Shown here: piece by piece, positions 1 to 45,114 of the stretch | How positions within the stretch are numbered: the stretch's first letter is position 1 | How the letters are laid out: every line of letters starts with the position of its first letter | IMG/VR virus record: IMGVR_UViG_3300020000_000001 | Span: 1 to 48,449 of that record | Length of the DNA stretch: 48,449 nucleotides | Source: a virus | Strand: one strand, 5' to 3' | The notes under the pieces: generated by a model | Seen by the model: only the letters and a program-made list of their open reading frames with translations | What the model was told of the DNA's origin: nothing | Database searches by the model: none | Position numbers and translations under genes: made by a program

Positions 1-94
1 CAATGCACAATAGGGTGATCGGCCCCCTCCCACAGAGGTCTCTCTAATGTCTCGTAAGCACGAAGGCGACTTAATTATCAAGTGGAAGGTGACG
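1..94. repeat. Terminal direct repeat, left copy
   Basis: The first 94 bases are identical to the last 94 (48356-48449), so the unique genome is about 48,355 bp. This may be the overlap left when a circular assembly was written out linearly, or a true redundant end. It contains the right half of inverted-repeat element A, the ribosome binding site and the first 16 codons of the gene starting at 47. A natural packaging terminus placed inside a promoter leader would be unusual, so an assembly overlap is the simpler reading. Confidence 0.95.
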
Positions 95-274
95 CTCCCC
101 GCCGCTCTGGCCGGACGAGTTGAGCACATGCTCCTCTCCCCTCTCCACAACAAACCCATCTACGCCTCTCGCGCCCGCCTCATTGAGGGCCTGTTGGAGT
201 ATTGGATCGCAAAGGAAAGCGGTTCCGTTCTTCCACCTCTCCCATCCCTCGAAGATTTAAGGAGCGCGGCCTAA
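47..274 (+). CDS. Putative ribbon-helix-helix-like small protein
   Basis: A 75-residue protein, not recognised with certainty. The N-terminal stretch KWKVTLPAALAGRVEHML followed by SRARLIEGLLEYWIAKE resembles the strand-helix-helix order of ribbon-helix-helix DNA-binding proteins, with a longer than usual link between the helices. It is the first gene behind the candidate promoter at 48338-48366, with AGAGG about nine bases before the ATG, so it is probably transcribed early. Its TAA overlaps the next ATG by one base (TAATG), so the two are translationally coupled. A regulator role is inference from fold-like pattern and position only. Confidence 0.7.
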   Translation: MSRKHEGDLIIKWKVTLPAALAGRVEHMLLSPLHNKPIYASRARLIEGLLEYWIAKESGSVLPPLPSLEDLRSAA

Positions 275-534
275 TGGCTGAAGCAACTCTCGACGTCTTG
301 AACCTCGCCGGCAAGACGCCGCAGGAACTCGAGCAACGTCGCCGCGATATCGTGGAAGATCTCAAGAAGAACTACAAAGGCTGGGACGACCCATCGGTCC
401 CAACTTCGCTCCTCCACGAACTCGCCGCACTGACCTCAACCCTCCGCCGCCGAACCTCTGGCCCGCCCGCCAAACCCAAGGTCCGTGCGAAGAAGGGCGT
501 TAGCACAACCGACGATCTAATGATCGACATCTAG
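274..534 (+). CDS. Small early protein with the shared DDLM C-terminal tail
   Basis: An 86-residue protein starting at the ATG that overlaps the upstream stop, with AAGGAG at 259-264. The first 60 residues look helical (KTPQELEQRRRDIVEDLKKNY). They lead into a basic, proline-containing linker (PPAKPKVRAKK) and end in STTDDLMIDI. The same ending closes four other unrelated proteins in this genome, at 3405-3713, 40703-41275, 42353-42790 and 44344-45114. No enzymatic motif is visible. The tail suggests binding to a common partner; the partner is unknown. Confidence 0.75.
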   Translation: MAEATLDVLNLAGKTPQELEQRRRDIVEDLKKNYKGWDDPSVPTSLLHELAALTSTLRRRTSGPPAKPKVRAKKGVSTTDDLMIDI

Positions 535-960: not shown

Positions 961-1586
961 ACGACTCCCCCCTTCCCGCTCTCCCTCTCCCCCAGTTCAC
1001 CTTCCTCTGCGGCTCCCTCGGCCAGGGGCAGGTCGAACTCATGACCGAGCTTGTCTCTCGCGACGACAATCTGATCCGCATGGACTTCACCTACCCCATC
1101 CACAACATGCTGTCGGAGCTATTTCCCGACACCTGTCCCGCCATGCTGGACCCGCTCGCAAACCTCTCCCACGGCGTCCTAGGTCATCCAACCCGCGAGG
1201 CACTAAACCACGACTTCCCTTCCCTCGGCAACGTCGACATCAATCAATTCATCATCACCATGACGACTGGTCTCCGCCTCGCCTTCGGCCCGAACTCCCT
1301 CGGTATGCTGGCCTATCGATATATCGTCCAACACGACATCCTCGACAACTTCAAGCGCGTCATCTTCACCGACGCCCTAGACGAACGAGACATCAGTCTC
1401 TTCATCACCCATTACAATGCAGAGAATGTCCTCTGTCTTCATCTCGGCGACATGGACCGCCAATACGGCACCGCCGGTCTGGCCTGCTCACACATCTGGC
1501 TCTCCGAACCATCACTCTCCCGCCGCATCTCGACGCTCGAGAAGGAACTATCCAATGGACGACCTGTCTCCGGAAACCATAATTGA
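957..1586 (+). CDS. Degenerate deoxynucleoside monophosphate kinase-like protein
   Basis: A 209-residue protein with AAAGGAG at 943-949 and an ATGA overlap with the preceding gene. FLCGSLGQGQV (residues 16-26) has the spacing of a P-loop, GxxGxG, but the invariant lysine is glutamine (Q25) and the following Ser/Thr is valine (V26). The later segment VIFTDALDERDISLF is placed like the D-x-R-x-x-x-E region of phage dNMP kinases. The fold therefore appears kinase-like while the phosphate-binding lysine is missing, so it may have lost catalysis or bind nucleotides without hydrolysis. Assigned by pattern only. Confidence 0.55.
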   Translation: MNDSPLPALPLPQFTFLCGSLGQGQVELMTELVSRDDNLIRMDFTYPIHNMLSELFPDTCPAMLDPLANLSHGVLGHPTREALNHDFPSLGNVDINQFIITMTTGLRLAFGPNSLGMLAYRYIVQHDILDNFKRVIFTDALDERDISLFITHYNAENVLCLHLGDMDRQYGTAGLACSHIWLSEPSLSRRISTLEKELSNGRPVSGNHN

Positions 1587-2565
1587 ACTCCCCGGCTATA
1601 TCGATTCAACCATGCTCACATGCTTCCGTGGATGTGGGCAGAAGTTCTATAAGGAGTTCATCCTTGGCCGCCGTCCCCCAGGACTCTCGGTTGACCTTCA
1701 CGCCGGCGCCTGCTTTGCAACAGCAGTTGAAGTCGTTCGCCGAGCTATCCATCGAGACAAGAAGTCTTATGCTGACGCTCTTCTCCTCGCCCACGCCGCC
1801 TACGCTATGTCATGGGGTGACTTTGAGATCCCGCCCGAGAAGAATACGGCGAAGACCTTTGACCGCACGTGGGAAGCGGTAGAGGACTATTTTCGAGTTA
1901 ACAGTCCACTAACGGACCATGTCCAACCATACATGGCCGCTAATGGTGAGCCCACGCTCGAATACACCTTCGCCATTCCGCTCGAACCGACTATAGAAAT
2001 TCACTCAACAATGTGGAAGAGAGGCGAAGACCCCACTGCTGGTTGCTTCCCTTCTCATCCGAATGGCTCACCCTTCCTCTATACAGGAAGGTTCGACATG
2101 TTAGGAGCTATGAATGGCCGTCCTATTCCCGTGGACGAGAAGACCAGTGGTCGAACAGCTGATGGGAATTGGGCAGAGCAATGGAATCTACGTAATCAGT
2201 TCCTGGGATACGTATGGGCCTGCCAGCAGTGTGGCCTCGACGTCGATAGCCTTATGGTACGGGGAACCTCCATCCTTAAAACGAAGATCGGGCAAGCTGA
2301 AGCTGTCAAGACCTACAGCACAGGTCTCCTGTCTCGGTGGCATGAGCAACTCCGTCGGGATATGTGGAGAATAAGACGCTCCTGGGACGAGGAGTATTGG
2401 GACTGGAACTTCGGCGACACCTGCACGCAATATGGGAATTGCATCTTCATGAACTCCTGCCAATCCGACCATCCGGATACGTGGCTTCAGGAGTTCGAAA
2501 TCCGCACCTGGAACCCCCTTGCGAAGAACCCAGTCGGTCCGTCGCAGAGTAAGGATAAGTTCTAA
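1555..2565 (+). CDS. PD-(D/E)XK exonuclease, RecB/Cas4-like, probable Fe-S protein
   Basis: A 336-residue nuclease. The ATG at 1555 has GAAGGAA just upstream and overlaps the previous gene by 32 bases. The catalytic core is visible: GRFD (D181), then VDEKTS (D194, E195, K196), then NQFLGY (Q215), the usual order of RecB-family nucleases. Cysteines at 23 and 27 and at 290, 296 and 302 flank the core, as in AddB/Cas4-type enzymes where four cysteines hold a 4Fe-4S cluster. With the Sak4-like ATPase and its partner downstream it may form the phage recombination set, resecting double-strand ends. Confidence 0.85.
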   Translation: MDDLSPETIIELPGYIDSTMLTCFRGCGQKFYKEFILGRRPPGLSVDLHAGACFATAVEVVRRAIHRDKKSYADALLLAHAAYAMSWGDFEIPPEKNTAKTFDRTWEAVEDYFRVNSPLTDHVQPYMAANGEPTLEYTFAIPLEPTIEIHSTMWKRGEDPTAGCFPSHPNGSPFLYTGRFDMLGAMNGRPIPVDEKTSGRTADGNWAEQWNLRNQFLGYVWACQQCGLDVDSLMVRGTSILKTKIGQAEAVKTYSTGLLSRWHEQLRRDMWRIRRSWDEEYWDWNFGDTCTQYGNCIFMNSCQSDHPDTWLQEFEIRTWNPLAKNPVGPSQSKDKF

Positions 2566-3326: not shown

Positions 3327-3408
3327 GGCCCGGCGCCGCGTCATCGCGATGCAAATGGCCGAAGCCGGCCACTCCTACACCGACAACGAGAGCGGAGGCG
3401 TCAATTGA
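3184..3408 (+). CDS. Hypothetical protein overlapping the membrane protein
   Basis: A 74-residue frame in +1 register to the previous gene. AAGGA at 3171-3175 sits eight bases before the ATG, so an independent start is plausible. From about residue 19 it reads like a normal protein (YVREECWEGKTLVYSREVEMAANVVPAFVEARRRVIAMQMAEAG), whereas the first 18 residues look like a shadow of the upstream frame. It may be a separate gene or the second half of a frameshifted one. Its stop overlaps the TTG start of the next gene. Confidence 0.55.
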   Translation: MTQKRSYSWGTSRVANLGYVREECWEGKTLVYSREVEMAANVVPAFVEARRRVIAMQMAEAGHSYTDNESGGVN

Positions 3409-3713
3409 CCACCCTCTACGACCTATCCGCCCGGCTGGACGATGCAGCAAAGCGGAACCCCGTAATCCAGCTCCATCGACTTAAGACACTCGTCTCGAGT
3501 CCGCCCTGTCTCTGTCTCGATTGCCATGAGTTCAAAAGCTATCTCGAACTCCTCGACGCAGAGGTATTTCATATCCAACTCCACACTCGCCAAGCTTGCT
3601 CAGATCGTTTTACTAAAGAACATCCTCCGAAGCCAGCCGCGCCCAAGCCTCCGTCTAAGCCATCACGAATATCAACAACAACCGACGACCTAATGACAGG
3701 ACTCGACATATGA
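3405..3713 (+). CDS. Cys-rich protein with the shared DDLM C-terminal tail
   Basis: A 102-residue protein with a TTG start that overlaps the previous TGA (TTGA); GGAGG at 3394-3398 supports this start. The centre holds a cysteine cluster (PPCLCLDCHEF) and another cysteine downstream (RQACSDRF), compatible with zinc binding. A proline-lysine linker (PPKPAAPKPPSKPSR) leads to ISTTTDDLMTGLDI, the tail shared with four other proteins. It ends on the ATG of the Sak4-like ATPase (TATGA), so the two are coupled. Function unknown. Confidence 0.7.
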   Translation: MTTLYDLSARLDDAAKRNPVIQLHRLKTLVSSPPCLCLDCHEFKSYLELLDAEVFHIQLHTRQACSDRFTKEHPPKPAAPKPPSKPSRISTTTDDLMTGLDI

Positions 3714-4669
3714 CGGATCAACTACAGCCTCCTGCTGGCCTCCTCGCCGGCCCTAGTGGCTCGGGTAAGACGGCGGCCCTCGTAACCCAGCTCGCAATGG
3801 GACTCGAAGTCTTCGTCATTGTCACCGAGCCCGACGGTGTCGCCTCCCTCCTCGATCGCTGCTTTGACTTAAAACTTCCAATCGACAAGCTGCATTGGAC
3901 CACCTGTCTCCCCGCCTCCGCCGGCTTCGACGGCCTCGAAGCCATGATCACCAGTATCTCGACCATGGATCAAAAGCAACTTGCCGATCAGCGGGATATG
4001 GGGAAGAAGGACTTCCGTGCCCCGGCCATGCGGTTTTTGAATGCGCTGAAAGATTTCCCATGCGAGCGGACTGGCCGACTTTATGGCTCCTTCACCACCT
4101 GGGACGACACCCGATCCTTAAATATCGACTCGCTGACCGGCTGGTCCCACATCGCCTGGGGCTGCACAGTGGGCTTCAAGCCGACCGCCAATCCGGGCGA
4201 GTGGGGGATCGCACAGAGCTTTATTTCCCAAATGCTTCTCAAAATCAACACCGACCGTCGATGCTACTTCAATCTCATCGCCCATGTCGAGAAAGAGATG
4301 GACGAAATGAGCGGCATCAAGCGGGTCATGGTGTCGACGATAGGTGCGAAGCTGGCGCCGAAGGTCCCGACGTTCTTCAGCGAAGTGATCCTTTGCAAGA
4401 GGCAAATCGCCTCGAACAGTCAAGCCGTCTTCACCTGGTCGACCATCGACTCCACTGCCGATCTTAAGAACCGCGCCCTTCCCATCGGCGCCACTCTCGC
4501 CCCCGATTTCAAACCAATCGTCGAGGCATATCAGCGCCGTAAGGCCATGATCAACGCCTCGAACGCAAGCAATCCTCCAGTCTACCCGAGCCAAGCAGCA
4601 CCACCGACGCCATCGCTGCCGACGGCTCCAATGAAACCGGCGTCAAGCGTAGGAGCAACTAAGCCATGA
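3710..4669 (+). CDS. Sak4-like RecA-fold ATPase, probable recombinase
   Basis: A 319-residue P-loop ATPase. Walker A is GPSGSGKT (residues 14-21); LNIDSLTGW (D140) is the Walker B-like strand. The pattern and length match the Sak4 type of phage RecA-like proteins, which load on single-stranded DNA and promote annealing or strand exchange together with a dedicated SSB. The last 45 residues are a proline and alanine-rich disordered tail. It overlaps the next gene, a probable SSB, by four bases, which is the usual partner arrangement. Together with the RecB-like nuclease at 1555 it would form a recombination or replication-repair set. Confidence 0.8.
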   Translation: MTDQLQPPAGLLAGPSGSGKTAALVTQLAMGLEVFVIVTEPDGVASLLDRCFDLKLPIDKLHWTTCLPASAGFDGLEAMITSISTMDQKQLADQRDMGKKDFRAPAMRFLNALKDFPCERTGRLYGSFTTWDDTRSLNIDSLTGWSHIAWGCTVGFKPTANPGEWGIAQSFISQMLLKINTDRRCYFNLIAHVEKEMDEMSGIKRVMVSTIGAKLAPKVPTFFSEVILCKRQIASNSQAVFTWSTIDSTADLKNRALPIGATLAPDFKPIVEAYQRRKAMINASNASNPPVYPSQAAPPTPSLPTAPMKPASSVGATKP

Positions 4670-5163
4670 GTAAGTTCGACCCCGACGACTTCATGCAGCA
4701 GACGATCGACGCCCCGATCTCTGACGACTACATCCTGTGTCCGGAGGGCGAATTCGAGGCACGGATCGACGACTTTGACTCGAAGATCTTCCGAACGAAT
4801 GAGTTCGTCTACAAGCAGGGTCCAAGCGAAGGTCTTCCGGGCGAAATGACGACCTTCAATTGCCCCTGGGTCATCAACGACGACCGCGCCAAGCAGGTCC
4901 TCAACCGGGACAAGGTCATCGTCTTCCAGCCGATCATCCTCGACTTCGACGACAACGGCAAGCTTGACCTTGGCATCAACAAGAACGTCAATCTCGGCCG
5001 CATCCGTACCGCTGTGGGTCAGAAGGACATGCTTCCGTGGGGTATCTCGAAGCTCCGCGGCCAGGGTCCCTGCATGGTCCGCGTTGTTCACAAGGACATC
5101 AAGCGGAAGGACGGCTCGATGATCAAGGTTGCGGAGGTGAACAGGGTCGTCCCGATTAAGTAA
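4666..5163 (+). CDS. Probable single-strand DNA-binding-like partner of Sak4
   Basis: A 165-residue protein beginning MSKFDPDDFMQQTI and continuing with a long beta-rich region (CPEGEFEARIDDF, KVIVFQPIILDFDDNGKL). Proteins of this kind are commonly encoded directly after Sak4/RecA-like ATPases in phages and are thought to be OB-fold single-strand DNA-binding proteins. The assignment rests on that neighbourhood and on the N-terminal pattern, not on a diagnostic motif. The C-terminus is basic-hydrophobic (NRVVPIK), unlike the acidic tip of bacterial SSB. A two-hairpin leader separates it from the next gene. Confidence 0.6.
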   Translation: MSKFDPDDFMQQTIDAPISDDYILCPEGEFEARIDDFDSKIFRTNEFVYKQGPSEGLPGEMTTFNCPWVINDDRAKQVLNRDKVIVFQPIILDFDDNGKLDLGINKNVNLGRIRTAVGQKDMLPWGISKLRGQGPCMVRVVHKDIKRKDGSMIKVAEVNRVVPIK

Positions 5164-18100: not shown

Positions 18101-18937
18101 CTTTACCCCAGTTTCCTTATTGATAAGGCCAGCCTTTACTGCCTCCTGAGCACCCTCCGTAACGCCTTCCGCAGCCGCACTCTTACCAGCTTCAATCGCA
18201 ATTCTCTTGATAAGACCTTGTTTGACGAGCTCCTTCCCACCAGTAGCAAGCAACTTCCCACCGGGTATAAGGCCAGCCATATCAAGTCCCGACATGATTG
18301 GAAGGACCATGGCCGACAGCTTCGCCGCACGCGTCGGCTCAACACCCGCCGCTTTGAGGTCTTGGAAGACTTCACCGTAGTTTGGAGCCGCGCTGCCAGC
18401 GAATGCACCAATACCCGCTCCAATTGGGCCACCAACGGCATAGCCGGCAACTCCCGCGGCAATCGGAGCCGCCGTCGAAGCAGCGCCCGTGCCAAACGTC
18501 TCCCCTGCCCAGGTCGCCGCATCGCCGAACCCCTTTATATCCCGTAATTTCGGGGCGATGAGCTGATAATCCTCTGGCGTCTTGACATCTTTAAGATAAT
18601 TCGCCCCAGTCTGTAATGGTTCTTTGAAATGGTCTGGGGCAAGAAGCGAAAGCCCCTCTAACGTCTGGCCATAGAGCTGGGGCTGTTGCTGGCCAATTCC
18701 CGTAACAATACCTCTCGTGACAGAATAGTGATCTTGCGGCTGAGACGTATTGAATACCTGATCGTCGGTCAGTCCCGCAGGAGTGGACGCAGAGGCACTC
18801 GCCGGCGGCGAAGTAGATTGAGGGCCAAACACATCGGCGTCAGACATTCCACCCACACCACTAGTCGCCGGAGCTATAGTGGGGACAGGAGCGGACTGTG
18901 CATCATTGCCGAATACTTCTGCGTCCGTAAAACTCAT
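12113..18937 (-). CDS. Giant ejection/polyvalent virion protein with zincin metallopeptidase motif
   Basis: About 2,274 residues from the ATG at 18937, chosen because it overlaps the upstream stop (ATGA); an in-frame ATG at 18964 is possible. The N-terminus repeats a short D-(A/D)-x-V-F motif three times. Residues roughly 150-200 are glycine/alanine-rich and hydrophobic (AGYAVGGPIGAGIGAFAG). Around 695-712, EEFQTDWLQAGRKLGY, and near 880, GMQKYYGEIVPK, mark a domain found in large polyvalent phage proteins. HEFGH at 1140-1144 with a later FDEWFAD is a zincin protease signature. The C-terminus resembles other giant podovirus virion proteins. It is probably packaged and injected with the DNA. 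I see no RNA polymerase motifs. Confidence 0.85.
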   Translation of the reverse strand: MSFTDAEVFGNDAQSAPVPTIAPATSGVGGMSDADVFGPQSTSPPASASASTPAGLTDDQVFNTSQPQDHYSVTRGIVTGIGQQQPQLYGQTLEGLSLLAPDHFKEPLQTGANYLKDVKTPEDYQLIAPKLRDIKGFGDAATWAGETFGTGAASTAAPIAAGVAGYAVGGPIGAGIGAFAGSAAPNYGEVFQDLKAAGVEPTRAAKLSAMVLPIMSGLDMAGLIPGGKLLATGGKELVKQGLIKRIAIEAGKSAAAEGVTEGAQEAVKAGLINKETGVKGFTESQAWDILENALGGALVGGPFGAVAAGVSKEAPSSTKKEPPTPEQIIQAFEELKPGQDFNPQQLGLLREIVTRPENTSLDTPATLSPEGGNFTSQIPTTRAAAAVEPEAEKQGPGPLWYSKAEQVAQQYLPESASAQDMRGILVNRGVKLDELTWTGLDDFFSAHGANIQPTQHDLDAPSQGAQAALVQWKQENPGQKPSQDMLQAVQQERQELQKAKGDAARATASAPRITKQDVINHLRDNQYKLKEVIRDDTSNKLLPREEEARQEVATLWLRNQELNTQLDNIPISTNWVTVRQPLLEEWNRNQERLNGLRATLRDAIRKPVVEYGEYTAPGERRGYATIAIQVPFNERAVDALINNTGYVDEEDIRRARGYTPPHFGETTRVNGQEQKVYENTIAHGRITLREDYSGQLVAHVEEFQTDWLQAGRKLGYLSEKLIKETDALQLAQDVAFLNFEELIGIGKSSLDAVTFYDHRLRNAIAAKDAQVVIQTLENVRTTWGDKAHDAFLEYSKALFKNVQHDKILQQAVADAPYKLTEDWTRLLLRRIIRWAADKGIQRITWSNPDLAFQYSAGNNGTATTDPNVDPERAKQYKGMQKYYGEIVPKVARDLARQYGGDFGVTNIRASQYGPWIARPFVANGVVTGWGMGRWEGNELNYAPTQGFKNFFTGPDQRSALPNSFKTSTEAISYIDILKKRGVLTDANSLKYSNQVGYIEFDRRAQWNFQSQGMPRFMADPTMEPAEVQPKSPQFEVFETTDLRNIPPEARSTSHRAALKFGDVLEQFAKRFNFKGKINFAIHGTPAQMAKAPGGLASLATHIYIPKTRTHTIEVDLSRFDMPADIAGARAATFLWGVLTHEFGHAVMDEHFDALPTSTKLAIRGAYDKFLSDAQQVRGFTEKMGLRMSSVYALYTKEGFRQKDWNALPQAEREYWVGFDEWFADQVSRWATTDEQPLSIVDRALKGIADMLKALMTYAQALFGGLSFTASEPMTDWLNSFLTTQAGFGHPQYLELDSNLVKTDQRAVAAEEPDMFIPERSPAADTMRAAAAMGAPGSPGPASSAVHASRINRFYKYMAGLEQLAQANPFFAPLIRYVERMKRMQLDETQIHDAAIRVRKDWKALGTQGENLTAFINDLVNLDFMTPQEKARGVVRHPNQMEQQALVAKHQLSKEGLEVFRKIKVLNDEVLKLVSQSAMQTAMRVITDPVKLANKIDEINIRTQSMMSRPFFPFMRFGRHYVIQKDAAGNTVHFETFERVGFKSAERQQQTRVDDLRKQFPGYPDPDVGILPEAASPFIGLPPMLLEEIRDKLNLTPSQIDALENLMYNHSTATKFPKAFKQNYTKGYSFDFQRSFARYFFHLGRYYARSRHSWELNDDIRAARLVGGNNAHKIADFMSDHLKNTVLEAKGDFGAVKGGIFLWAMGYVPAAATQNLTQTPMITFPYLAAKFGDVSATRAMAKAMGQLSTFYKRGTYSAAISKGGASFDTVAMSYGIQKGIITESQASELAAASQGMNLMKGLGGNRAQQGWQAFMEKSAWMFEMAEQWNRRIAYRAGLNLALDKPNAPIVKEAINANRGEYDELKSRLGNDAQAAAIITASYVTNQTQFQYARWARPRFMRGRLAGTIFVFKLYMQSTLFMLGNNKSDVLPRYLVMAALMGGMAGIPGFDDLKEILKMVGHRFFGKDWNVDHAVRDFILSHFDGKIPPDMVLGGLARQGYGIPALLDLMGSFVTGTPGRGFDGKVAGQNVPFPVLDRHKAITLGPILPVELGKLFDTTDDPNRVIAEQSQRASGAVFSVGFNMVKAILDNKLEGTDPKRWERAIPRQLADMTRTWRAFSEGRERSRGGPDSAPTIASFNWRDPEQAGELLAMATGYQALRVQSKWDSIMAKAEVEKFYEMQQKTLFGQLFEARKGGNTAEINDVLDSIRRYNRELPQIAKGYTITEQNARSSIQGRERELIARERGVPTQRRNVPISREIDRLFPESTVDVRRVR

Positions 18938-19686
18938 GGAGCTACCCACATCTGCCCGGTCCATTTAAGCGGACCTTTTGGCGTCGAATACACCGTTCCG
19001 GGCGTTCGGAGCTTAGGATCACGCGGCGCATCAGTTGTTCCCGCAACAGCGGGAGCCGCCCCGCCCGGCAATATGTCGCCAGTGTCCCCCTGATCACCAC
19101 CTCCGCCCGGCGCGGCTGCTGGAGGCAAGAGACCAAGCTGATTGATGAGCGGATTGTTCCGAGCCCACGTATCCATATCCAGAACAGGCGCCTTCGGAGC
19201 CATCGGCGAACCCGGCGGCTTAAGAACATCGTTGTTCTGCTTATCAACAACGGCATTCGCGGCGTTCGTATTTCGGACATAGTTCTGATACATGGCCGAA
19301 AGTCGGATACGAGCTGACTGATCGGCTCGTAGTCTCTTCCCTTCCTCAATCGCGCCAGTGAGCGACGACCTCGTAGCAGCAGTATTGGCTCGAGCCTCGG
19401 CCGCCCCGGCCTGACTCGCCCTCAACTCGCTCTTCGAATCAATCTCCTGTTGCTTCTGTTCCTGTGCGGTCTGCGCGTTCATTGCCTCACCAGCCCCGCC
19501 AACACCTTTGGCGAACTGGACAGTTCCGCCTCCCCACTGCGGAATCATCGCATTGGTTCCGAAAGCGAGAAGAGCACTTAACATCTTCGGATCAGCCATG
19601 AAGCTGCTAACCGCACCCTGTGCCTGCGGGTCCGGCGTCACCCCAGTCATGGGACCGGGGGAGAAGTAGTCAATCGGACTAGCCAT
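18934..19686 (-). CDS. Internal virion protein
   Basis: A 250-residue protein; GGGGAGG just before the ATG at 19686 favours this start over the GTG at 19692. The first 75 residues are Gly, Pro and Ala-rich with helical hydrophobic parts (MLSALLAFGTNAMIPQWGGGTVQFAKGVGGAGEAMNAQ). Next is a long helix (AQEQKQQEIDSKSELRASQAGAAEARANTAATRS) and then a Pro/Gly-rich C-terminal half. This make-up, and its place between capsid-tail genes and the giant protein, is typical of podovirus internal or ejection proteins. No enzymatic motif. Confidence 0.7.
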   Translation of the reverse strand: MASPIDYFSPGPMTGVTPDPQAQGAVSSFMADPKMLSALLAFGTNAMIPQWGGGTVQFAKGVGGAGEAMNAQTAQEQKQQEIDSKSELRASQAGAAEARANTAATRSSLTGAIEEGKRLRADQSARIRLSAMYQNYVRNTNAANAVVDKQNNDVLKPPGSPMAPKAPVLDMDTWARNNPLINQLGLLPPAAAPGGGGDQGDTGDILPGGAAPAVAGTTDAPRDPKLRTPGTVYSTPKGPLKWTGQMWVAP

Positions 19687-35160: not shown

Positions 35161-37108
35161 ATTCGCTCGTCCCCGCTGCTTCGCCTCCAAGTTGAGGCAG
35201 ACCCGCATCGTTAGAAGCCGACATTCCAGGGCTCGCCATGCCGCCGGACCCACCGGGCGCTGGTAACATCGGGATAGAGCCGGGGGCAGGCTCCTGACCA
35301 GGCTGCAAGACTTGGACCTTGAACTGATTTATATTCTTCAGCCCGCCAAGCTGCGCTGTCCAGGCGAATATCCGCCCCCAATCGTATGACATCGCGACTT
35401 GTGGAGGCATCCTCATTATACCAGCCAAGACCTCTTTCCATAAATTCGCCTGTGCCATTCGATCGATGGGCAGAGTTCCATCGACAGGGATAAGATCAAA
35501 GAACCCGACAATATCCTCGGGAGAGACGTTCATAAAGTTGGCGCCGGCCTCAGTAGCGAACGACCCGACACGACGCAGCTTCGCCTGCGCGCTATACATT
35601 TGTTGACTAGTCTGGACTAGCTTCTGACTATGAGGGGCGAACCCCATTCCAGACATATATTCGGAGATTGTCTTGAGACGATTAATGCCAAAAGCTGTGG
35701 TAGTTCGGACTTCCGTAGCTGTCTTCCTCTGGTTTCCTCCCATAGACCCCATGATTTGATCGTTGATTCCGATCGTTCGCTCGCCAATCGCGAACATCGC
35801 TTGGAAGTCGGCCATATGAGCCTGAGTAACATCTCGGACCTCAACCTGCTTAAACATCTGATTGAGGTCAGTTCCATAGGCCTCAGGACGAAGACGCCAC
35901 AGAAAACCAGGACCCGTATTTTGGACATCCTTGATAACGAGCTTCGACGGGTCGACAATAAACTGGTTGTTGAGGGATTGACGGACGTTATAAAAGTGGG
36001 AGTTAAGCAGCCAGTCAACGGTGTTTTGGATGGGGTCCATGATTTCGAGAATGCCACGCGAGTAGAGCCCATAACCTTCTACCTCATTCTCCATAATGTC
36101 GAAGGGGAACTGACAATGCCACATACCAAGCGGCGTGGCGCCGCAAATGAGGGAGAGGTCCTCGGTTATCGTAAAGCACCAAATCTGCGGATAATTCGTC
36201 TGTCCCACGCCCCATTCTTTCGGGACGAGATTGACATAGACTTCATAGAAAACGCCTCCCGCAGGATGCTTTACTTTATCATCAACAGCAATATCCTCAT
36301 TCATCAAGGGTCGTTGGAGGATGGAGGAGCCTTCGCTAGACCCACCAACACTGCCCGTCCGATCCGCGATATGGCCCGCAATTTTGTCAATGTTGATAAA
36401 GTAACCAGCCCGTTGTCGTTCGAGGATTTGGTTCCAGCCGAGCCTCTTACGAATACCAAGGAACTCACCACTCTGAAACCTCTTGACTGGTACCCGTGGA
36501 TCGGGAAAGAAGTCCCACGGGGATACATTATAAACACAGTTCCCTTCATATCCCGGAATCTCCTGCGTGACCTGATACACACCCATCTGGCCAGTATTCG
36601 GGTCTTGCATTTCGACTAGCTGGCCGAAGTTAAGTATCTTCTTCTCCCAGTAGCTTCCAATAACGCCGATCCCATACTTCCCCGTATCGTAGAGCCAGAT
36701 ATAATACGGGACAACGAACTGACCCACCTCATACTGATATCCAATCAGCGCCTCGACCGCTTGGACCTGCTGCTCGCCTTCGCCATGTCGCCCGTTGAAC
36801 TGATGAACGGGCGAGCGACTAAAAAACACCGATGTCCAATAGGTATGCGCAGACATGAGAAGAGCGTAGCTGTATGGAACCTGGATCGTTGTGTACGAGG
36901 GGACGCCAGAGAGATCACGACGGTTAGTCCGGATGGCATCCGCCTCACTCGGCTTGATGTAGGCGAGGGTTGTTTCTTCGGCATCCTGCCACTTAAAATG
37001 TTGGAGCTGTTGACCCCGCTTTGCGAGCGCAATTCGGGTCTGGAGCATCGAGACCAGCTTCTTATGAAGCGGACTTTCTTGCGGGATATTAAGTGAGCGA
37101 GCTGGCAT
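35150..37108 (-). CDS. Portal protein
   Basis: A 652-residue protein directly after the terminase large subunit, overlapping it by one base. PYSYALLMSAHTYWTSVFFSRSP, then QVQAVEALIGYQYEVGQF and YDTGKYGIGVIGSYWEKK, fit the podovirus portal pattern. Later PVDGTLPIDRMAQANLWKEVLAGIMRM matches its crown region. The Gln/Gly/Pro-rich C-terminus (MLPAPGGSGGMASPGMS) is disordered. Twelve copies would form the DNA channel and motor dock. A long plus-strand reading frame inside it is a shadow of its codon use. Confidence 0.85.
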   Translation of the reverse strand: MPARSLNIPQESPLHKKLVSMLQTRIALAKRGQQLQHFKWQDAEETTLAYIKPSEADAIRTNRRDLSGVPSYTTIQVPYSYALLMSAHTYWTSVFFSRSPVHQFNGRHGEGEQQVQAVEALIGYQYEVGQFVVPYYIWLYDTGKYGIGVIGSYWEKKILNFGQLVEMQDPNTGQMGVYQVTQEIPGYEGNCVYNVSPWDFFPDPRVPVKRFQSGEFLGIRKRLGWNQILERQRAGYFINIDKIAGHIADRTGSVGGSSEGSSILQRPLMNEDIAVDDKVKHPAGGVFYEVYVNLVPKEWGVGQTNYPQIWCFTITEDLSLICGATPLGMWHCQFPFDIMENEVEGYGLYSRGILEIMDPIQNTVDWLLNSHFYNVRQSLNNQFIVDPSKLVIKDVQNTGPGFLWRLRPEAYGTDLNQMFKQVEVRDVTQAHMADFQAMFAIGERTIGINDQIMGSMGGNQRKTATEVRTTTAFGINRLKTISEYMSGMGFAPHSQKLVQTSQQMYSAQAKLRRVGSFATEAGANFMNVSPEDIVGFFDLIPVDGTLPIDRMAQANLWKEVLAGIMRMPPQVAMSYDWGRIFAWTAQLGGLKNINQFKVQVLQPGQEPAPGSIPMLPAPGGSGGMASPGMSASNDAGLPQLGGEAAGTSEYAT

Positions 37109-38667
37109 TATGGAGCCCTTCCTGCTGTGATGTATCCGCCGAAGTCCTCCACATCGTCTGAATCGAGCTCGCCACTCGCGCTCAGACGGTCGAGATAAGG
37201 GTTCGCCAAATCTGCAAGGGCAATCGACGATGCATCGAGGTCGTCGTCGTTCCCCTGATACGTGGGTCCATATTCGTTATATTGTGAGATAAATGCGTCG
37301 TTTTCCTCCCCGACAACAAGTAACCCCTCGGGACCCAGGGTGCCGATTGTAGACATAATTCGCGCGAACTTTTTCTGCTTTGTGACGAACGGGATAACTT
37401 GGAAATAAGTACCACGCCGCTTCATCTCCTGCTCGAGCATCCACTTTAGAACCCTCTGGTAAGCAATAGCCTCAACAACTATTCTAGCAACACGCCATTC
37501 ACGCGCCAGAGATAAAGCAGTAGTAACAGACCAATTAGGCTCATGGCCCCGATTGCGACGATAATCCAAAAGCTCGTATCGTCCTTGGTGCCGCCCCCAG
37601 ACATACTGAGCCTCCCAATCCTTCGTCTGCATAGCCCGCGCTATTTGCGCTTCACTTGGCGGCGGGACGGGGTCGATCCCCAGAACTGCATAGCACCCGC
37701 GCGGCTTCTCATAATCTCTGATATTAAGCCACGTAGTGCGGAAAGAGGATGTCTCCTTCGAGATGAGACGACATTCCATTTCACGCGCAAATATCGAAAG
37801 CTTATTTCTCCTGACCGCCGCCTTCTTATCAGCACGAAGTTCCTCTGTCGTGAAACGATCAGGCCATGAACTGATCTGGTCGTCCACACCTGAATCGAGT
37901 GTCTCTTTCGTCCAACAAGGGAAGACGACACTGTGCCATTGATCGTCGTTAAGACACTGCTGGCTAATATCCTCTTCGTGCTGGGGTGTGATGGCCATGG
38001 CAAGCTTGGCATTCGGTTCATCCGTTATTGGGGCGAGACTGTTCTTGACCGCCCCGAGGATGAGATTAGATGTCTTTTCCCTCTGAGCTAGGGTAGCCGC
38101 CGTCTCGTCCGTTTGCGGGTCATCGATGATGATGAGGTCAGGTCGATAGTCGTCGAAATTAATTCCACGCAGAGAGCCAGTAATTCCGGCTCCAAGGACG
38201 TTAACGGTATGGCCAAATGTCTTATGAACAATCTCGATTTGACTCTCTTCCCATTTCCTCCCTTTCTCGAGTCGGAAAGTATCTCGCCAGAGATGATTAC
38301 GCTCGATTCGATTCTTGAGCCAGGAGACAGAACGGAACGCATCGGCCTCACTTACCCCGATATAGAGGATGGTCCGAGAAATTCCATATGAAATCCTCTT
38401 CGCGGCGAAGGTCCGGAGGGTAGTTGTCTTCCGGCCGCCGCGGAATATTTCGAGCATAACAAGCCGCTTCCTCGGGTTCTCGAGCGGCTCCCACATCTCC
38501 TTCGCCCAGACGGGGCTTTTCTGCCGGAAGGTGCCAGGAAAAAAGACCTTTCCAAAAAGCTCTGAATCGACCGCGCATAGTTTGACTAGCTCCGCTAGAT
38601 CAATAGATTGCGGGGTATCGGTCTCAAGGCTGTCGGCGGGTAGAGCTAGATCTTCTTCTTCCGCCAC
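37108..38667 (-). CDS. terL: Terminase large subunit
   Basis: A 519-residue packaging motor protein. The ATPase A-site is FRGGRKTT (residues 75-82), a variant in which glycine-arginine-lysine replaces the usual GK pair. Walker B is DLIIIDDPQTDE (D182, D183). The RNase H-like nuclease half begins at GIDPVPP (about residue 335) and closes with DDDLDASSIAL (about 480). It cuts the concatemer and pumps DNA into the head. It overlaps the nuclease-like gene upstream by 22 bases. Confidence 0.92.
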   Translation of the reverse strand: MAEEEDLALPADSLETDTPQSIDLAELVKLCAVDSELFGKVFFPGTFRQKSPVWAKEMWEPLENPRKRLVMLEIFRGGRKTTTLRTFAAKRISYGISRTILYIGVSEADAFRSVSWLKNRIERNHLWRDTFRLEKGRKWEESQIEIVHKTFGHTVNVLGAGITGSLRGINFDDYRPDLIIIDDPQTDETAATLAQREKTSNLILGAVKNSLAPITDEPNAKLAMAITPQHEEDISQQCLNDDQWHSVVFPCWTKETLDSGVDDQISSWPDRFTTEELRADKKAAVRRNKLSIFAREMECRLISKETSSFRTTWLNIRDYEKPRGCYAVLGIDPVPPPSEAQIARAMQTKDWEAQYVWGRHQGRYELLDYRRNRGHEPNWSVTTALSLAREWRVARIVVEAIAYQRVLKWMLEQEMKRRGTYFQVIPFVTKQKKFARIMSTIGTLGPEGLLVVGEENDAFISQYNEYGPTYQGNDDDLDASSIALADLANPYLDRLSASGELDSDDVEDFGGYITAGRAP

Positions 38668-40702: not shown

Positions 40703-41275
40703 ATGACGAACATTGACGAGGATACCAACGTGACCCGCAAGGCAGTTGCCAAGCACTTTCTCCTGGACGAGAATGGCGAGGTCACGCAGGATGAGACCAA
40801 GGCCAAGGGCTTCCGCTATCACCAAATCTCGACTGGCGAGAAGTTCGACTACATCGTGACCCCGGCCGCGATCCTCATGCTGGCTTGCTTTGGCGGCAAG
40901 ACACTGGCTACCAACGAAGCCTCTCAGGTTAGGAATAACCCGAAAGGCGCCGGAGGCGACGCGGAACAGATGGAGGCGATCAAGAATCGTTTCGCCCTCC
41001 TGGACCAAGGCGAGTGGGTGGACAGGACCCGCGAAGCCGCCGCCCCGAACCTCGATTGGCTGGCTGAAGCCGTGGTCACGGTCATGCTGGCAGACGGCAG
41101 GATTACGGAGGAGCAAGCCTCTGGTGACGCGAAAGCGAAAGTTCGCCAGAAGCTCGACGACGACGCGGCCTACGTCAAGACCGTTCGTCAGCATCCCCGA
41201 GTTGCCGCCGAGTACGCGAGGCTCGCGGGAAGGGTGGTCCGGACGACCGACGACTTGATGGCCGCGATCACTTAG
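40703..41275 (+). CDS. Early protein with the shared DDLM tail, own promoter and terminator
   Basis: A 190-residue protein; GGCGGAG lies about 12 bases before the ATG at 40703, and the frame upstream is unconvincing. FRYHQISTGEKFDYIVTPAAILMLACFGGKTLATNEASQVRN, followed by NRFALLDQGEWVDR, is a pattern seen in conserved phage proteins of unknown function. The second half is helical. It ends VVRTTDDLMAAIT, the tail shared with four others, though here without a proline-rich linker. It stands alone between a sigma70-like promoter and a strong intrinsic terminator, so it is expressed as a single unit, probably early. Confidence 0.75.
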   Translation: MTNIDEDTNVTRKAVAKHFLLDENGEVTQDETKAKGFRYHQISTGEKFDYIVTPAAILMLACFGGKTLATNEASQVRNNPKGAGGDAEQMEAIKNRFALLDQGEWVDRTREAAAPNLDWLAEAVVTVMLADGRITEEQASGDAKAKVRQKLDDDAAYVKTVRQHPRVAAEYARLAGRVVRTTDDLMAAIT

Positions 41276-41297
41276 TTCGCCGAAGGGCTGCAAGGAC

Positions 41298-41334
41298 GGG
41301 GCCTCTGGGAAACCAGGGGCTCCGCTCCTTTTTT
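41298..41334 (+). terminator. Intrinsic terminator after the 40703 gene
   Basis: An 11-pair stem (41298-41308 with 41313-41323, two G-T pairs) closes on a GAAA tetraloop. Six Ts follow at 41329-41334, five bases after the stem. This is the best rho-independent terminator in the window and ends the single-gene transcript that starts near 40650. Confidence 0.85.
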
Positions 41335-41928
41335 CTGGCCCTCCCGCGACCGAACACAACCGAGACCCGCAAAATCATATCTCAACAATCGGCCTACGAT
41401 GGCCGCCAGTGCGTCGGATCGGGGGCGCCGCTACCTTGGGGGCGCAACACAACCGAATCGCATGGGTGGCCGACGTAGGGCATTCAACGTCGAGATCACC
41501 TCTACGACACGTCGACTCATACATCGGCTGATACCTCGAGCTAGCTCTATCCCGTAATTTCCGTCTAGGTACCCGCATGGCCCCCCGCCGAGGTACCTAA
41601 ATTCCCGAGGTAAGTGGGTTCCTCCCCCCTCCCCGAATATTTCTTATAGACCTCTATAGAGACCCCCGAGCAGGGACTCCCGACTACGGGCGCCGACGTG
41701 GGGCTCTCCCCCGGCCAGTGCGGGTATCTCAGACCAAAAGCGGGTTCTGAGCTATGTTAAGGTAGGACAGGACGTAGGAGTCGACGTAAGATTGAGGTAT
41801 CGTTGAGTTAGGACATAACAAATGCCTTAATCTGAACACAATCCTGCCCCACTGTTGCCACATTTAACCTCCACAATCAGGGCGCCATCCGGCGAAGGTC
41901 CGCCCGGAACCTGGCTCAGGAGCACCAA
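41335..41928. other. 590-base noncoding region with many inverted repeats
   Basis: No supported gene. Structures seen: CGACGT/ACGTCG near 41471-41492; TAGGTACC (41566-41573) with GGTACCTA (41592-41599); the palindrome TATAGA-CC-TCTATA at 41645-41658; CTCAGA/TCTGAG at 41728-41751; ACACAACCGA twice (about 41354 and 41448); and the word GAGGTA or AGGTAG several times. TTGAGG-N16-CATAAC near 41793-41820 could be a weak promoter for the genes from 41929. A replication origin or regulatory hub is possible. Confidence 0.6.
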
Positions 41929-42114
41929 ATGCCCTACACATCCCACACCATCTACTTCGGCACACTCCAGACTACGGTCGGCGTGACGATCAGACCGACC
42001 CCATCACTGACGCTGGATGAACTGCACAAGCTGATCGCAGAGCTGCAAGCCATCCACGACGATATGGAAGCCCGCACTTCCATGCTGGCAGATCAAGGCG
42101 AGTGGAAGCGATGA
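41929..42114 (+). CDS. Small hypothetical early protein
   Basis: A 61-residue protein with AGGAG before the ATG. The N-terminal half is beta-like (IYFGTLQTTVGVTIRPTP), the rest one helix (TLDELHKLIAELQAIHDDMEARTSML). No family recognised. It opens a chain of overlapping small genes that runs to 43454. Confidence 0.6.
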   Translation: MPYTSHTIYFGTLQTTVGVTIRPTPSLTLDELHKLIAELQAIHDDMEARTSMLADQGEWKR

Positions 42115-42356
42115 TCCTCGGCTTGGCCATCTACGACCTAGCGACAAAGAGCATCCGCTTTGTGGTGGAGGTGAAAACCTCCCCACGGGGCGATGTCTTC
42201 ATCCGTCTAGACCACACAACGCCACGCACATACTGTTTTCCCGACGCATGGCGGGGCGAATATGAGTGGCTAGACGCCCACATCCCGCTCGCAGAGCGAT
42301 TGAAGTATGAGACTGACTTCGATCTCATCTGGGGAACAATGACGGAGCACCCATGA
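42111..42356 (+). CDS. Small hypothetical early protein
   Basis: An 81-residue protein whose ATG overlaps the previous stop (ATGA). LAIYDLATKSIRFVVEVKTSPRGDVFIRLDH is beta-like and the second half aromatic-rich (YCFPDAWRGEYEWLDAHIPLAERLKYETDFDLIW). No motif is known to me. It overlaps the next gene by four bases. Confidence 0.6.
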   Translation: MILGLAIYDLATKSIRFVVEVKTSPRGDVFIRLDHTTPRTYCFPDAWRGEYEWLDAHIPLAERLKYETDFDLIWGTMTEHP

Positions 42357-42790
42357 GTACGCCTCTCCTACTCGCCGACCCGCATAAGGACGTTCTACCG
42401 CATTCCTACGTCATGCAGGTGACAACATCGCAATGCTCTTCTTGTGGCCACATCGGCCAAAGCTGCGAGACATTCGCTAAGACATGGATGAAGGGACAAT
42501 GGGGAAAGCCCTTCCCTAATCTTCGACCCCTGAACGGTCCGCCGAAATACCGCCTCCCCATCGAACGGGTGACACGAGCTAAGTTCTCAATTCCCTTCTG
42601 CGACCACTGTTTAGACCCGAATAAGGTGGTCGAGAACCTCCCCTATCCACCCACCCCCGCACCATTGAAGACAGTCGTTGGCATGACGCAGGACGGGACG
42701 CTGACGGCAGCACCCAAGCCAGCAAAACCCAAGACGGCGGGATCGAAGTCAACCAGCACCGACGACTTGATGAAAGGTCTGGACCTATGA
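42353..42790 (+). CDS. Zinc-ribbon protein with the shared DDLM C-terminal tail
   Basis: A 145-residue protein. One ribbon is visible as CSSC (28, 31), paired with CDHC (near 83-86), which would hold one zinc. A linker of Pro, Ala and Lys (AAPKPAKPKTAGSKS) follows, and the end is TSTDDLMKGLDL, the shared tail. The layout of folded Cys domain, flexible basic linker and tail recurs in the 44344-45114 protein and in part in 3405-3713. The tail probably docks the protein on a common target. Start by ATGA overlap. Confidence 0.75.
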   Translation: MSTPLLLADPHKDVLPHSYVMQVTTSQCSSCGHIGQSCETFAKTWMKGQWGKPFPNLRPLNGPPKYRLPIERVTRAKFSIPFCDHCLDPNKVVENLPYPPTPAPLKTVVGMTQDGTLTAAPKPAKPKTAGSKSTSTDDLMKGLDL

Positions 42791-42972
42791 TCAACCTTGT
42801 ATATCCTGAGAAGCGCCGTGTCACAACCCAACAAATCGCGACGTGGTGGCATGACGCCGTAGACAATGGTCAGATCGACCGCGCCGCCCGCCACGGTGAC
42901 GAGATCGTGACGAACGACATGATGGTCGCCGACCTCGAAGACATCGGCTTCATTTCACGGGGGAAGGACTAA
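42787..42972 (+). CDS. Small hypothetical early protein
   Basis: A 61-residue protein whose ATG overlaps the previous stop. It is mostly helical (TTQQIATWWHDAVDNGQIDRAARHG ... MMVADLEDIGFISRG). The pattern of short amphipathic helices could form a small helical bundle. No family recognised. It overlaps the next ATG by one base. Confidence 0.6.
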   Translation: MINLVYPEKRRVTTQQIATWWHDAVDNGQIDRAARHGDEIVTNDMMVADLEDIGFISRGKD

Positions 42973-43454
42973 TGATGAAGATCAAAGACCTTACCACGAA
43001 AGACCCCATCTTCTCCCATCATAACGAGGAGACAGGCGTCTGGACCCACATCGCCGCCGCCCGCTTGGCCACCGCTCTGGACGGCAAGAAGGAATTCATT
43101 CGCCCCGTCACGATCGACGAGAAGACATACCAGCTCATCCTCACGTGCAACGGGGTCGAGCAACCCTGTGTCGAAAGATGGAAGGTTCGCTATCTCCTCA
43201 ACGCATCCGACCCATTCTCTCTCCCCCTTCCCATCTTCATCGAATGGGAGGACAAACATCACACCCTCGCCGACGGTAACCATCGCCTCTGCGCGCTCTA
43301 TCAACTCGGCGTACCACGTATATTAGTATACCTAGCTCCCCCCGATCTCTGGCGTCAGTTCGAGGTCGAACTCTCGCCAATGGCTCAAGCAATCGTCAAC
43401 ATGCCGGGATATATGTCCGGCTCCTACTCCCACCTTCGCAAGAAGGATGATTAA
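42972..43454 (+). CDS. ParB/sulfiredoxin-like domain protein
   Basis: A 160-residue protein starting at the ATG that overlaps TAA. HTLADGNHRLCALYQLGVPRILVYLA carries the G-x-HR-x-x-A motif of the ParB/Srx fold, and PIFIEWEDKHH is the strand before it. It is a second member of this fold besides the methyltransferase fusion at 5576. Such proteins bind or hydrolyse CTP/ATP or act as nucleases; which of these applies is unknown. The gene ends directly on inverted-repeat copy B. Confidence 0.65.
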   Translation: MMKIKDLTTKDPIFSHHNEETGVWTHIAAARLATALDGKKEFIRPVTIDEKTYQLILTCNGVEQPCVERWKVRYLLNASDPFSLPLPIFIEWEDKHHTLADGNHRLCALYQLGVPRILVYLAPPDLWRQFEVELSPMAQAIVNMPGYMSGSYSHLRKKDD

Positions 43455-43487
43455 GGGGCCAGTTCACAGGGCTGTGCATTGCCCCCT
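43453..43487 (+). promoter_or_regulatory. Conserved inverted-repeat element, copy B
   Basis: GGGGC and GCCCC pair as outer arms and CACAG with CTGTG as the inner stem, loop GG. It starts in the TAA stop of the ParB-like gene and ends about 34 bases before the ATG of the VWA gene. The inner stem sequence differs from copies C, D and E while keeping pairing. Confidence 0.75.
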
Positions 43488-43520
43488 CGCTCTACCTCCA
43501 ATCCACAAAGGGACCACAAA

Positions 43521-44186
43521 ATGTCAAACGTAACAATCCGATCCGGCCTCCCATCCAAGACCCCAGAGTCGAATGACCTCGACTACATGCTCATCGATGG
43601 CTCCGCCTCGATGCAAACGAAGTGGTGGAACTTCCTGACCGCCGGCGACATCTTCCTCGAGGAAGCGAAGAAGAACGGCGTTAAGTCCCATTTGGTTGTT
43701 CACGTATTCGATACCGAAGATCACGAGATGATTCAGCGTGACGAGCCTCTGGCAACCGCTAAAACGTTTGCTGAGGAGCCAATCGGTTCGCACTTCGGTG
43801 GGACACCCCTCTATGACGCCATCGTCTTGATGGGTATGCGTCTTAAAGAACGCAACCCCTCGAAAGCCTCAATCGTCATCATCACCGACGGCGACGATCT
43901 CGACTCCCGCACCAACGTCAACGATGCGAAGCGTGTTCTCGACTGGTGCCGGGCGAGAGGCTGGCAGGTGACATTCATCGGCTGCGACTTCAACAACGAC
44001 GACCAGAGCAAATTGCTCGGCGCCGATGCCTCGAACACAATCGGTGTGGATCGCAAGCTTCTCAACGACGCCGCCCGCAATCTGGCGACGAAACGAGCCG
44101 CATACAGCCGCGATGGCGACAACATCGCCTTCACCGACGATGAGAAGAAGAAGTTCGGTGGCTATCTGACCGACGGGACGAAGTAA
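43521..44186 (+). CDS. Von Willebrand factor A domain protein
   Basis: A 221-residue protein; AAAGGGA lies before the ATG at 43521. The metal site (MIDAS) is complete: DGSAS (D26, S28, S30), threonine in GGTPLYDA (T95), and ITDGDD (D123). It is therefore a single VWA domain, a fold that binds partners through Mg2+ or Mn2+. The C-terminus is charged with a lysine-rich end (DDEKKKFGGYLTDGTK). No partner ATPase of the MoxR type is next to it. It stands behind inverted-repeat copy B, so it may be expressed separately. Confidence 0.85.
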   Translation: MSNVTIRSGLPSKTPESNDLDYMLIDGSASMQTKWWNFLTAGDIFLEEAKKNGVKSHLVVHVFDTEDHEMIQRDEPLATAKTFAEEPIGSHFGGTPLYDAIVLMGMRLKERNPSKASIVIITDGDDLDSRTNVNDAKRVLDWCRARGWQVTFIGCDFNNDDQSKLLGADASNTIGVDRKLLNDAARNLATKRAAYSRDGDNIAFTDDEKKKFGGYLTDGTK

Positions 44187-44351
44187 ATGACCAAGACGGA
44201 GGATCTTAGGAGAGAATATCATCGTCATCGCGAAGGTGAGACCGACACATTAGTCGCCGCCTTCGCGATGATATATGAACAAATCACGGGCAAGCAAGTC
44301 TCCGACCGACTCCGTGAACAACTCTATCAAGCGGTGCGCTTCGATGGCTGA
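44187..44351 (+). CDS. 54-residue hypothetical protein
   Basis: A short gene that starts directly after the TAA of the VWA gene. It reads MTKTEDLRREYHRHREGET, then LVAAFAMIYEQITGKQVSDRL and ends VRFDG. It is helical and charged at first. Its stop overlaps the next gene by eight bases, so it fits the same chain of coupled genes. There is little ribosome binding sequence before the ATG, so it may rely on reinitiation. Function unknown. Confidence 0.6.
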   Translation: MTKTEDLRREYHRHREGETDTLVAAFAMIYEQITGKQVSDRLREQLYQAVRFDG

Positions 44352-45114
44352 TTTAAAGCTCGAGACACTTATTAAAGTCCTCATGATGACGACGAGCGAC
44401 ACCGATGGGGAGGCGCTGGCGGCTATCCGCCGCGCCAACTCCATGCTCAAGACCGCCCACGTTGATTGGTCCGAACTCCTTCACGGCAAAGTCACCGTTG
44501 TCGCCGACCCCTTCGACTCAATCGCGGCGCCGCGCAAGGCGACCTCATCCGCATCCGTCACCGTCCCCCGTCCACCACAGGCTCCAACATCACCTTTCCG
44601 CTCAGCGACGCCGGCCTCGCCACCACCTCCACCCCCATCGAGCTATCGGCGAGGTAATACCAATCGCTTCGCCGCCGAATGCCTCACCTGCAACGCCCAC
44701 GTCGACGTTGGCTACGGCGCTCTCTTCTCCCACACCCACAACGGTCAACAAACAACCTGGGTCCTATGCGAGCCCTGCAACGACAAGAACCGAACCAACC
44801 AATACACCTCTGCCTTCATCAACGCCGCCGTCAACATCGCCGTCCGTCGCAAAGCAACCCAAGCCCGAGCCCGAAGGGCAACCTTCACTGGAACCTGCTA
44901 CAACTGCGACAATACATCGACCACCAACACAGCCCGAGCAGTAAGTGGGACCACAAATCAGCTCTTCTGCATTCGCTGTGACGAAGCACTCGATGATGGC
45001 TCGCTGAACATGAATGCCGTAATCACGAACCGCCAAACACGGCTCGCCAGCCGCGGCCCCCGAACTAAGCGCAAGGTCACCACCGCTGACCTTATGAAAG
45101 ACATCGACTTTTGA
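44344..45114 (+). CDS. Double zinc-ribbon protein with DUF2786-like N-terminus and the shared tail
   Basis: A 256-residue protein. ETLIKVLMMTTSDTDGEALAAIRRANSML (about 6-35) resembles the DUF2786-type helical domain. A Pro/Ser-rich linker follows (PASPPPPPPSSY). Two Cys-pair ribbons come next: CLTC ... CEPC and CYNC ... CIRC, separated by about 30 and 27 residues, probably two zinc sites. The end is RKVTTADLMKDIDF, the tail shared with four others, with one Ala in place of the first Asp. It may bind nucleic acid; the partner reached by the tail is unknown. Its TGA overlaps the next TTG (TTGA). Confidence 0.75.
   Translation: MADLKLETLIKVLMMTTSDTDGEALAAIRRANSMLKTAHVDWSELLHGKVTVVADPFDSIAAPRKATSSASVTVPRPPQAPTSPFRSATPASPPPPPPSSYRRGNTNRFAAECLTCNAHVDVGYGALFSHTHNGQQTTWVLCEPCNDKNRTNQYTSAFINAAVNIAVRRKATQARARRATFTGTCYNCDNTSTTNTARAVSGTTNQLFCIRCDEALDDGSLNMNAVITNRQTRLASRGPRTKRKVTTADLMKDIDF

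Follow-up and report, generated by a model that had tools for sequence, protein, structure and literature searches.

Shared acidic-hydrophobic ends on unrelated early proteins of a phage and its relatives: candidate docking peptides for a common partner

Many partners are docked by the C-terminal tip of bacterial SSB (DDDIPF), an acidic-hydrophobic peptide at the end of a flexible linker. In phage T4, gp45 is bound by gp43, gp55 and gp33 through acidic-hydrophobic C-termini that are highly similar and can replace one another (PMC2988020), and, in phage HK620, Sak4 requires the last six residues (NDYPPF) of its SSB, the product of the neighbouring gene (PMC5928155). Here we consider a set of protein ends encoded in the complete virus record IMGVR_UViG_3300020000_000001 of IMG/VR (48,449 bases, hereafter the window), where five proteins with unrelated bodies end in variants of one short tail. 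The clamp-binding C-termini of T4 are the nearest precedent in kind: in both cases, unrelated proteins of one phage share short acidic-hydrophobic C-termini. We argue, at a probability of about 0.6, that these tails are docking peptides through which several unrelated early proteins would reach one common site, likely on a phage-encoded protein of a conserved early module.

Terminal tails in the window and in its relatives

The five C-termini (proteins a, z, b, c and d; Table 1) had been pointed out in a model-made first-pass annotation of the window and are reproduced exactly by translation. The pattern [ST]x[AD]DLM has five matches within the last 14 residues of the 64 genes and none in the remaining 14,255 residues, so that the location of the tail at the C-terminus of all five proteins is borne out; in 20,000 composition-preserving shuffles, no more than one protein ever matched this pattern, and a single match occurred 30 times. 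A Lys/Pro/Ser-rich linker, which had been described as preceding most of the tails, is present in four of the five proteins and missing from protein b. The bodies are unrelated, as the annotation had also claimed: upon removal of the tails, BLASTP detected no homology among the five. Protein z was pulled into the family of protein c by an iterated profile because of its tail alone, the E-value being 0.22 once the tails were removed; hence, homology among the five bodies was rejected on both the BLASTP and the family-c profile results. Three of the bodies had been taken for Cys-rich, probably zinc-binding ones; CxxC pairs do occur in three of the five, which bears out the first part, and zinc may be bound.

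The first 25 kb of the window have no close relative among the INPHARED phages. Related loci were gathered by scans with Sak4 and the SSB-like protein, together with the annotated phages MW202489, PP438425 (Microcystis) and MF497422 (Vibrio). The set analysed below comprises 26 long genome records, the window counted among them; genes of the relatives were called with a simple caller, the G006 record is without its last 1.3 kb, and a number of the contigs may be incomplete. Two of the relatives, Vibrio phage VS-ABTNL-3 and Microcystis phage Mel-JY34, are isolates.

In these relatives, the tails are shared within a genome and differ between genomes. Specifically, five proteins of G001 end in RTVDDLAAMLG, VNLDDLNSIF, ASLDDLCNMF, ASVDDLADMF and ATIDDLEGMF (S-V-D-D-L-x-x-M-F type); six proteins of G002 have tags of the E-P-S-L-E-D-L type, namely, the tails EPSLEDL, EPSVQEL, EPATEDL, GPAIEDL and GPTISDL, and SEPSLEDL at an N-terminus; five proteins of G021 end in TTLEELI, ESLEALI, IKLEDLI, PTLEDLI and VTADALI (T-L-E-D-L-I type); and G027 has tags of the N-L-D-D-L-I type both at C-termini (VNLDDLI, VSLDDLA, NLKDLIDG) and at N-termini (MNLDDLI, NLNDLI). 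The bearers within each relative show no detectable homology of their bodies. Counted with genome-specific patterns, terminal and internal matches number 5 and 0 in G001, 6 and 0 in G002, 5 and 0 in G021, 5 and 0 in G027, and 3 and 0 in both G041 and G019.

Since these patterns were composed post hoc, from tails already in view, a motif-free screen of all C-terminus pairs was added, in which 41,667 within-genome and 166,668 between-genome pairs from the 26 genomes were scored, with BLASTP-detectable body homology excluded. The ratio of the within-genome to the between-genome rate is 14 at scores of at least 32 and 20 at scores of at least 35, and the 14 within-genome pairs at the lower threshold mostly represent the tail motif, four of them coming from the window itself. 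Furthermore, the match between the tails of family b (the homologues of protein b) and the other tails within genomes is 0.471 vs 0.341 upon permutation, and 0 of 20,000 genome permutations reached the observed value; when each of two clades was treated on its own, 0 of 20,000 and 5 of 5,000 permutations did so. The pair screen is the less biased of the two approaches because the tails used for permutation were hand-picked. Tail-less homologues combined with a lack of multi-gene sharing in relatives, the outcome that the first-pass annotation had named as fatal to its proposal, are not what the relatives show on examination: they possess several tailed proteins each.

In some genomes, the bearers include enzymes of DNA metabolism, that is, in G002, a dNMP kinase, a ParB-methyltransferase and, with an N-terminal tag, an endonuclease-I-like protein. 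The N-terminally tagged bearers of G027 are a UvrD-type helicase and, again, an endonuclease-I-like protein, a name that follows the annotated homologues in PP438425 and MF497422. The gene slot directly upstream of sak4 is occupied by different bodies in the window, in L005 and in G001/L012, each ending with the tail of its own genome. A similar core recurs in a Vibrio phage, in a Microcystis phage and in uncultured phages. When the literature was searched for phage proteins with a common, conserved motif at the C-terminus, no matching description turned up.

Tail-bearing families and the early module

Family b is found in 40 of 44 records and, with a body-only profile, in 26 of 26 complete genomes, usually as two paralogues, with the tail retained in most; the tails align even at 14–29% identity of the bodies to the window protein. 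In the model of a family b homologue (L033, pLDDT, the predicted local distance difference test score, 93.7), the tail lies within the terminal helix, at residues 171–177 (pLDDT 82–87). For the fold of this family, no solved structure matched below an E-value of 0.001, the matches being limited to uncharacterised viral proteins, and the search of single tails by sequence against solved structures gave no match.

Family c (homologues of protein c) is represented in 22 of the 26 genomes and shows that the tag is not bound to one end of the protein. In the window, G001, G002 and G021, the motif is C-terminal; outside the window clade, it is N-terminal in 8 of 19 homologues, as compared to 48 of 1432 among all non-b N-termini (Fisher P 1.6e-7). 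Accordingly, the description of the tag as C-terminal is correct for the window and does not hold as a strict rule, homologues being able to bear the motif N-terminally.

In most relatives, a tail is present on the homologue of protein a or on the product of the gene that takes its place immediately before the nuclease, for example, STDDLLGGLDI in L020, TSLKDFLS in L009 and VNADDLLSELGL in G010. Protein d has homologues in three other genomes, with the ends VNLDDLNSIF in G001 and IKLEDLI in G021; no homologue was found for the body of protein z. The small protein encoded at 47-274 is a sixth, weaker candidate bearer by its end PSLEDLRSAA, and members of its family elsewhere end in PSLEELR (G021) and NLKDLIDG (G027).

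The early genes are common property of the set. All 26 genomes encode the small protein 47-274, the PD-(D/E)XK nuclease, the SSB-like protein, a ParB-methyltransferase, DNA polymerase A (PolA) and family b; Sak4 is likewise present in 26 of 26, counting one tblastn match in G006, and DUF3987 in 25. The structural families of the window, for the most part, occur in about half of the 26 genomes or fewer.

Table 1. Tail-bearing proteins of the window and their neighbours in the early module
Feature	Coordinates	Strand	Length (residues)	C-terminal tail or end (position)	Remarks
Protein a	274..534	+	86	STTDDLMIDI (502-531)	universal small gene 47-274 directly upstream; PD-(D/E)XK nuclease downstream
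Protein z	3405..3713	+	102	TTTDDLMTGLDI (3675-3710)	TTG start; one CxxC pair; adjoins sak4 from upstream, ATGA overlap
Protein b	40703..41275	+	190	RTTDDLMAAIT (41240-41272)	
Protein c	42353..42790	+	145	TSTDDLMKGLDL (42752-42787)	two CxxC pairs
Protein d	44344..45114	+	256	VTTADLMKDIDF (45076-45111)	four CxxC pairs
Small universal early protein	47..274	+	75	LPSLEDLRSAA (239-271)	
Sak4-like RecA-core ATPase	3710..4669	+			PHROG 124, E 4.4e-6
SSB-like protein	4666..5163	+	165		gene adjacent to sak4
PD-(D/E)XK nuclease	1555..2565	+			PDDEXK_1, E 2e-4, just under the curated cut-off

Several further features of the window deserve mention. DNA polymerase A is split over two (+) strand genes, the first of which (6900-8702) includes a UDG-like domain at its N-terminus and the second of which is 9888-10658; the small open reading frames between the two parts include 8699-9016, 9194-9622 and 9571-9882; in G019, the polymerase is a single gene. 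In the window clade, Sak4 has a proline-rich extension at its end, and a conserved peptide of the [LV]P[AT]AP[ML]xP kind within it is missing from distant relatives. The terminase large subunit (37108-38667, −) and a VWA-domain protein (43521-44186, +) have ends that are alike, DDVEDFGGYITAGRAP and DDEKKKFGGYLTDGTK, respectively; the end of the VWA-domain protein recurs in G001, G002 and G021, and that of the terminase does not. The gene 12113-18964 (−) codes for a virion protein of 2,283 residues that matches a DarB-like antirestriction family (PHROG 10089, E 5.7e-23).

The putative partner and the rival explanations

The terminal position, the linkers, the use of either terminus, the unrelated bodies and the concerted variation within genomes, together with the conservation in relatives, argue for a docking peptide that serves one partner with a drifting site. 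In this sense, the proposal of the first-pass annotation, a shared docking tag that directs early proteins to one hub, is well supported as an interpretation, the hub itself being given here as a ranking. We infer that the tag binds a protein and that there is a single hub. The tail can be envisaged as a short acidic-hydrophobic segment, [V/I/F/T]-[D/S/T/N]-x-[D/E]-x-L-[L/M/F], often preceded by a flexible linker, which would probably form a helix of one to two turns; the core may correspond to the start of this helix, where a capping residue would come first and the hydrophobic contacts after it. Each bearer would present its tail to the same binding site, which would thereby gather small accessory proteins in one place, joined in some genomes by DNA enzymes. 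Should the binding site drift, all bearers would have to follow, so that the tag would come to differ between genomes.

The common partner is most likely to be a conserved phage-encoded replication/recombination protein. Sak4 is the leading candidate, followed by DNA polymerase A and the SSB-like protein; it is placed first because Sak4 of HK620 depends on the acidic-hydrophobic C-terminal hexapeptide of its SSB, because the SSB-like proteins considered here are without such a tip (that of the window ends in EVNRVVPIK), and because several genomes have a gene for a tailed protein directly before sak4. The polymerase, the SSB-like protein or a host factor are possible partners as well. The AlphaFold2 model of the SSB-like protein has a pLDDT of 96.3, and its best matches in the PDB are bacterial SSBs (E 0.013, template modelling score 0.31), a weak fold similarity.

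Several other hubs were considered and set aside. DUF3987 was rejected because it was not detected in G019, a genome with tails (this record may be incomplete). A hub in the structural module is disfavoured because structural modules swap among the relatives. The families of the gp45-type clamp (PF09116) and of the bacterial beta clamp (PF02767) were recognised in none of the 26 genomes, where a divergent clamp could escape detection, and the large subunit of ribonucleotide reductase was not found in these phage genomes either, so that none of the three is a likely phage-encoded hub.

A number of observations weigh against this interpretation. Tails are weak or missing in G014 and G037, as well as in one or both b paralogues of some further genomes. 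The profile of b tails finds only a modest excess among non-b C-termini (27 vs 12 composition-shuffled ends at score 8); the motif in general is thus loose, and it is the genome-specific sharing that carries the case. The screen of N-termini against C-termini over all genes yields only an approximately two-fold excess, and a large share of the cores come near D-x-D-x-L-L, a common pattern at helix starts. The N-terminus of the SSB-like protein, FDPDxFM, looks like the same motif by eye and was rejected as such: its tail-profile score is not significant (median in the top 11.6% of internal segments), and the model shows this end as folded. Finally, the hub is put forward as a ranking, and the binding of the tails to it as a prediction.

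The alternative that calls for the most attention, albeit an unlikely one, is that the hub belongs to the host, with the beta clamp, the ribonucleotide reductase NrdA, RNA polymerase or a partner of host SSB as examples, and that the tails mimic a host docking peptide so as to hijack or block it. Acidic-hydrophobic C-termini do dock host replication proteins; the C-terminus of E. coli NrdB resembles the VDTDALL and TDDLM tails; a dNMP kinase is among the G002 bearers; and the phages themselves encode neither a ribonucleotide reductase nor a recognisable clamp. However, the tag varies strongly between genomes whereas the pockets of the host clamp and reductase are conserved, and a similar core is shared by one Vibrio phage and one Microcystis phage as well as by uncultured ones. 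The beta-clamp motif (QLxLF type), which requires Gln at its first position, was rejected since this residue is found in none of the five window tails, and the spacing of the hydrophobic residues is unlike that in NrdB. Because the C-terminus of NrdB is a close look-alike, the host-reductase variant is kept, at a low probability. That the tails are self-association helices, through which the bearers assemble mutually with no separate hub, appears improbable. Short amphipathic helices can oligomerise, one helix is common to several proteins, and family c may bear the motif at either end; yet the tails are short and strongly acidic and may stop at the core (TVDDL, PSLEDL), which fits docking into a groove better than a coil, and the bearers of some genomes include single enzymes.

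We find it very hard to believe that the shared ends are functionless remnants of recombination or of gene-end duplication, although the window does offer this explanation some support. The 18-base cores are 72–94% identical between the window copies, and the identity of their synonymous codons is 25, as compared to 14.8 expected from the codon usage of all genes (P 0.006) or 16.6 from that of the (+) strand genes (P 0.031). Hence, the statement of the first-pass annotation that differing codons reveal selection of the peptide and not of the DNA was too strong, the absence of shared DNA having been slightly overstated, and short gene-end copying could have helped to spread the tail. Nevertheless, the likeness of the DNA ends at the core, the preceding 60 bases being 22–38% identical, which is the level of unrelated sequences; the peptide is retained in family b at the low body identities given above; and there are N-terminal occurrences and variants that change together within a genome. 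Across relatives, as judged from the sequences, conservation of the tail is at the peptide level. Least credible of all would be a capsid-targeting or degradation signal: terminal tags of this kind exist in other phages and bacteria, but the genomes with the common tagged early module differ in their structural modules, all five bearers in the window are on the early (+) strand, and acidic ends, along with N-terminal placement in some homologues, are unlike C-terminal degrons.

Comparison with described docking ends

Taken together, the observations lead us to the tentative, slightly less than even-odds suggestion that a clade of mostly uncultured phages with one replication/recombination module employs a private, genome-specific tag, at either end of up to six unrelated proteins, DNA enzymes among them, to assemble these on one hub encoded by the phage, which would be neither a recognised sliding clamp nor a case of the SSB tip. 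If so, the tag would be a compact interaction code, such that sequence alone would tell which unannotated proteins belong to one phage complex; this would be useful where most early genes are without annotation and would supply candidate accessory factors of the Sak4/SSB/PolA module. One short motif would also have evolved in concert over unrelated proteins, and the co-varying tags would, in addition, keep apart the complexes of co-infecting relatives. T4 would no longer be alone among phages in having common docking ends, and this second case would differ from it by a larger number of bearers per genome and by the lack of a recognised clamp.

The comparison with T4 extends to the linker, the segment of gp55 being located behind a variable one (PMC2988020). 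The differences are that the 26 genomes gave no match to the gp45 or the bacterial clamp family, that the window clade has five to six bearers per genome, mostly small proteins without an assigned function, and that the motif can also be N-terminal and varies between genomes. With HK620, the window shares a RecA-core ATPase (PHROG 124) encoded next to an SSB-like gene; in HK620, it is the SSB that bears the peptide, one similar to the bacterial tip, whereas here the SSB-like protein is tipless and other proteins bear a different tail. NrdB, the R2 protein of ribonucleotide reductase, has its look-alike sequence at the very C-terminus, where it docks NrdA; unlike the tails described here, this sequence belongs to a single protein and differs in hydrophobic spacing, and its partner, the large subunit, is not among the proteins found in the 26 phage genomes.

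The likeness to the SSB tip, noted at first sight, applies in kind and not in sequence: none of the five window tails ends in IPF, as the -DDxIPF tip does, and genuine IPF tips are found on other, separate proteins in G014 and G019. In L077, L079, L080, L081 and L060, the gene before the nuclease likewise codes for a separate protein that ends in an SSB-type tip, GDDLDIPF, beside a protein with a DDLL-type tail. What the tails have in common with the bacterial tip is an acidic-hydrophobic end behind a flexible linker; the arrangement is the reverse, in that bacterial SSB is one protein with many partners, whereas here many proteins carry one tag.

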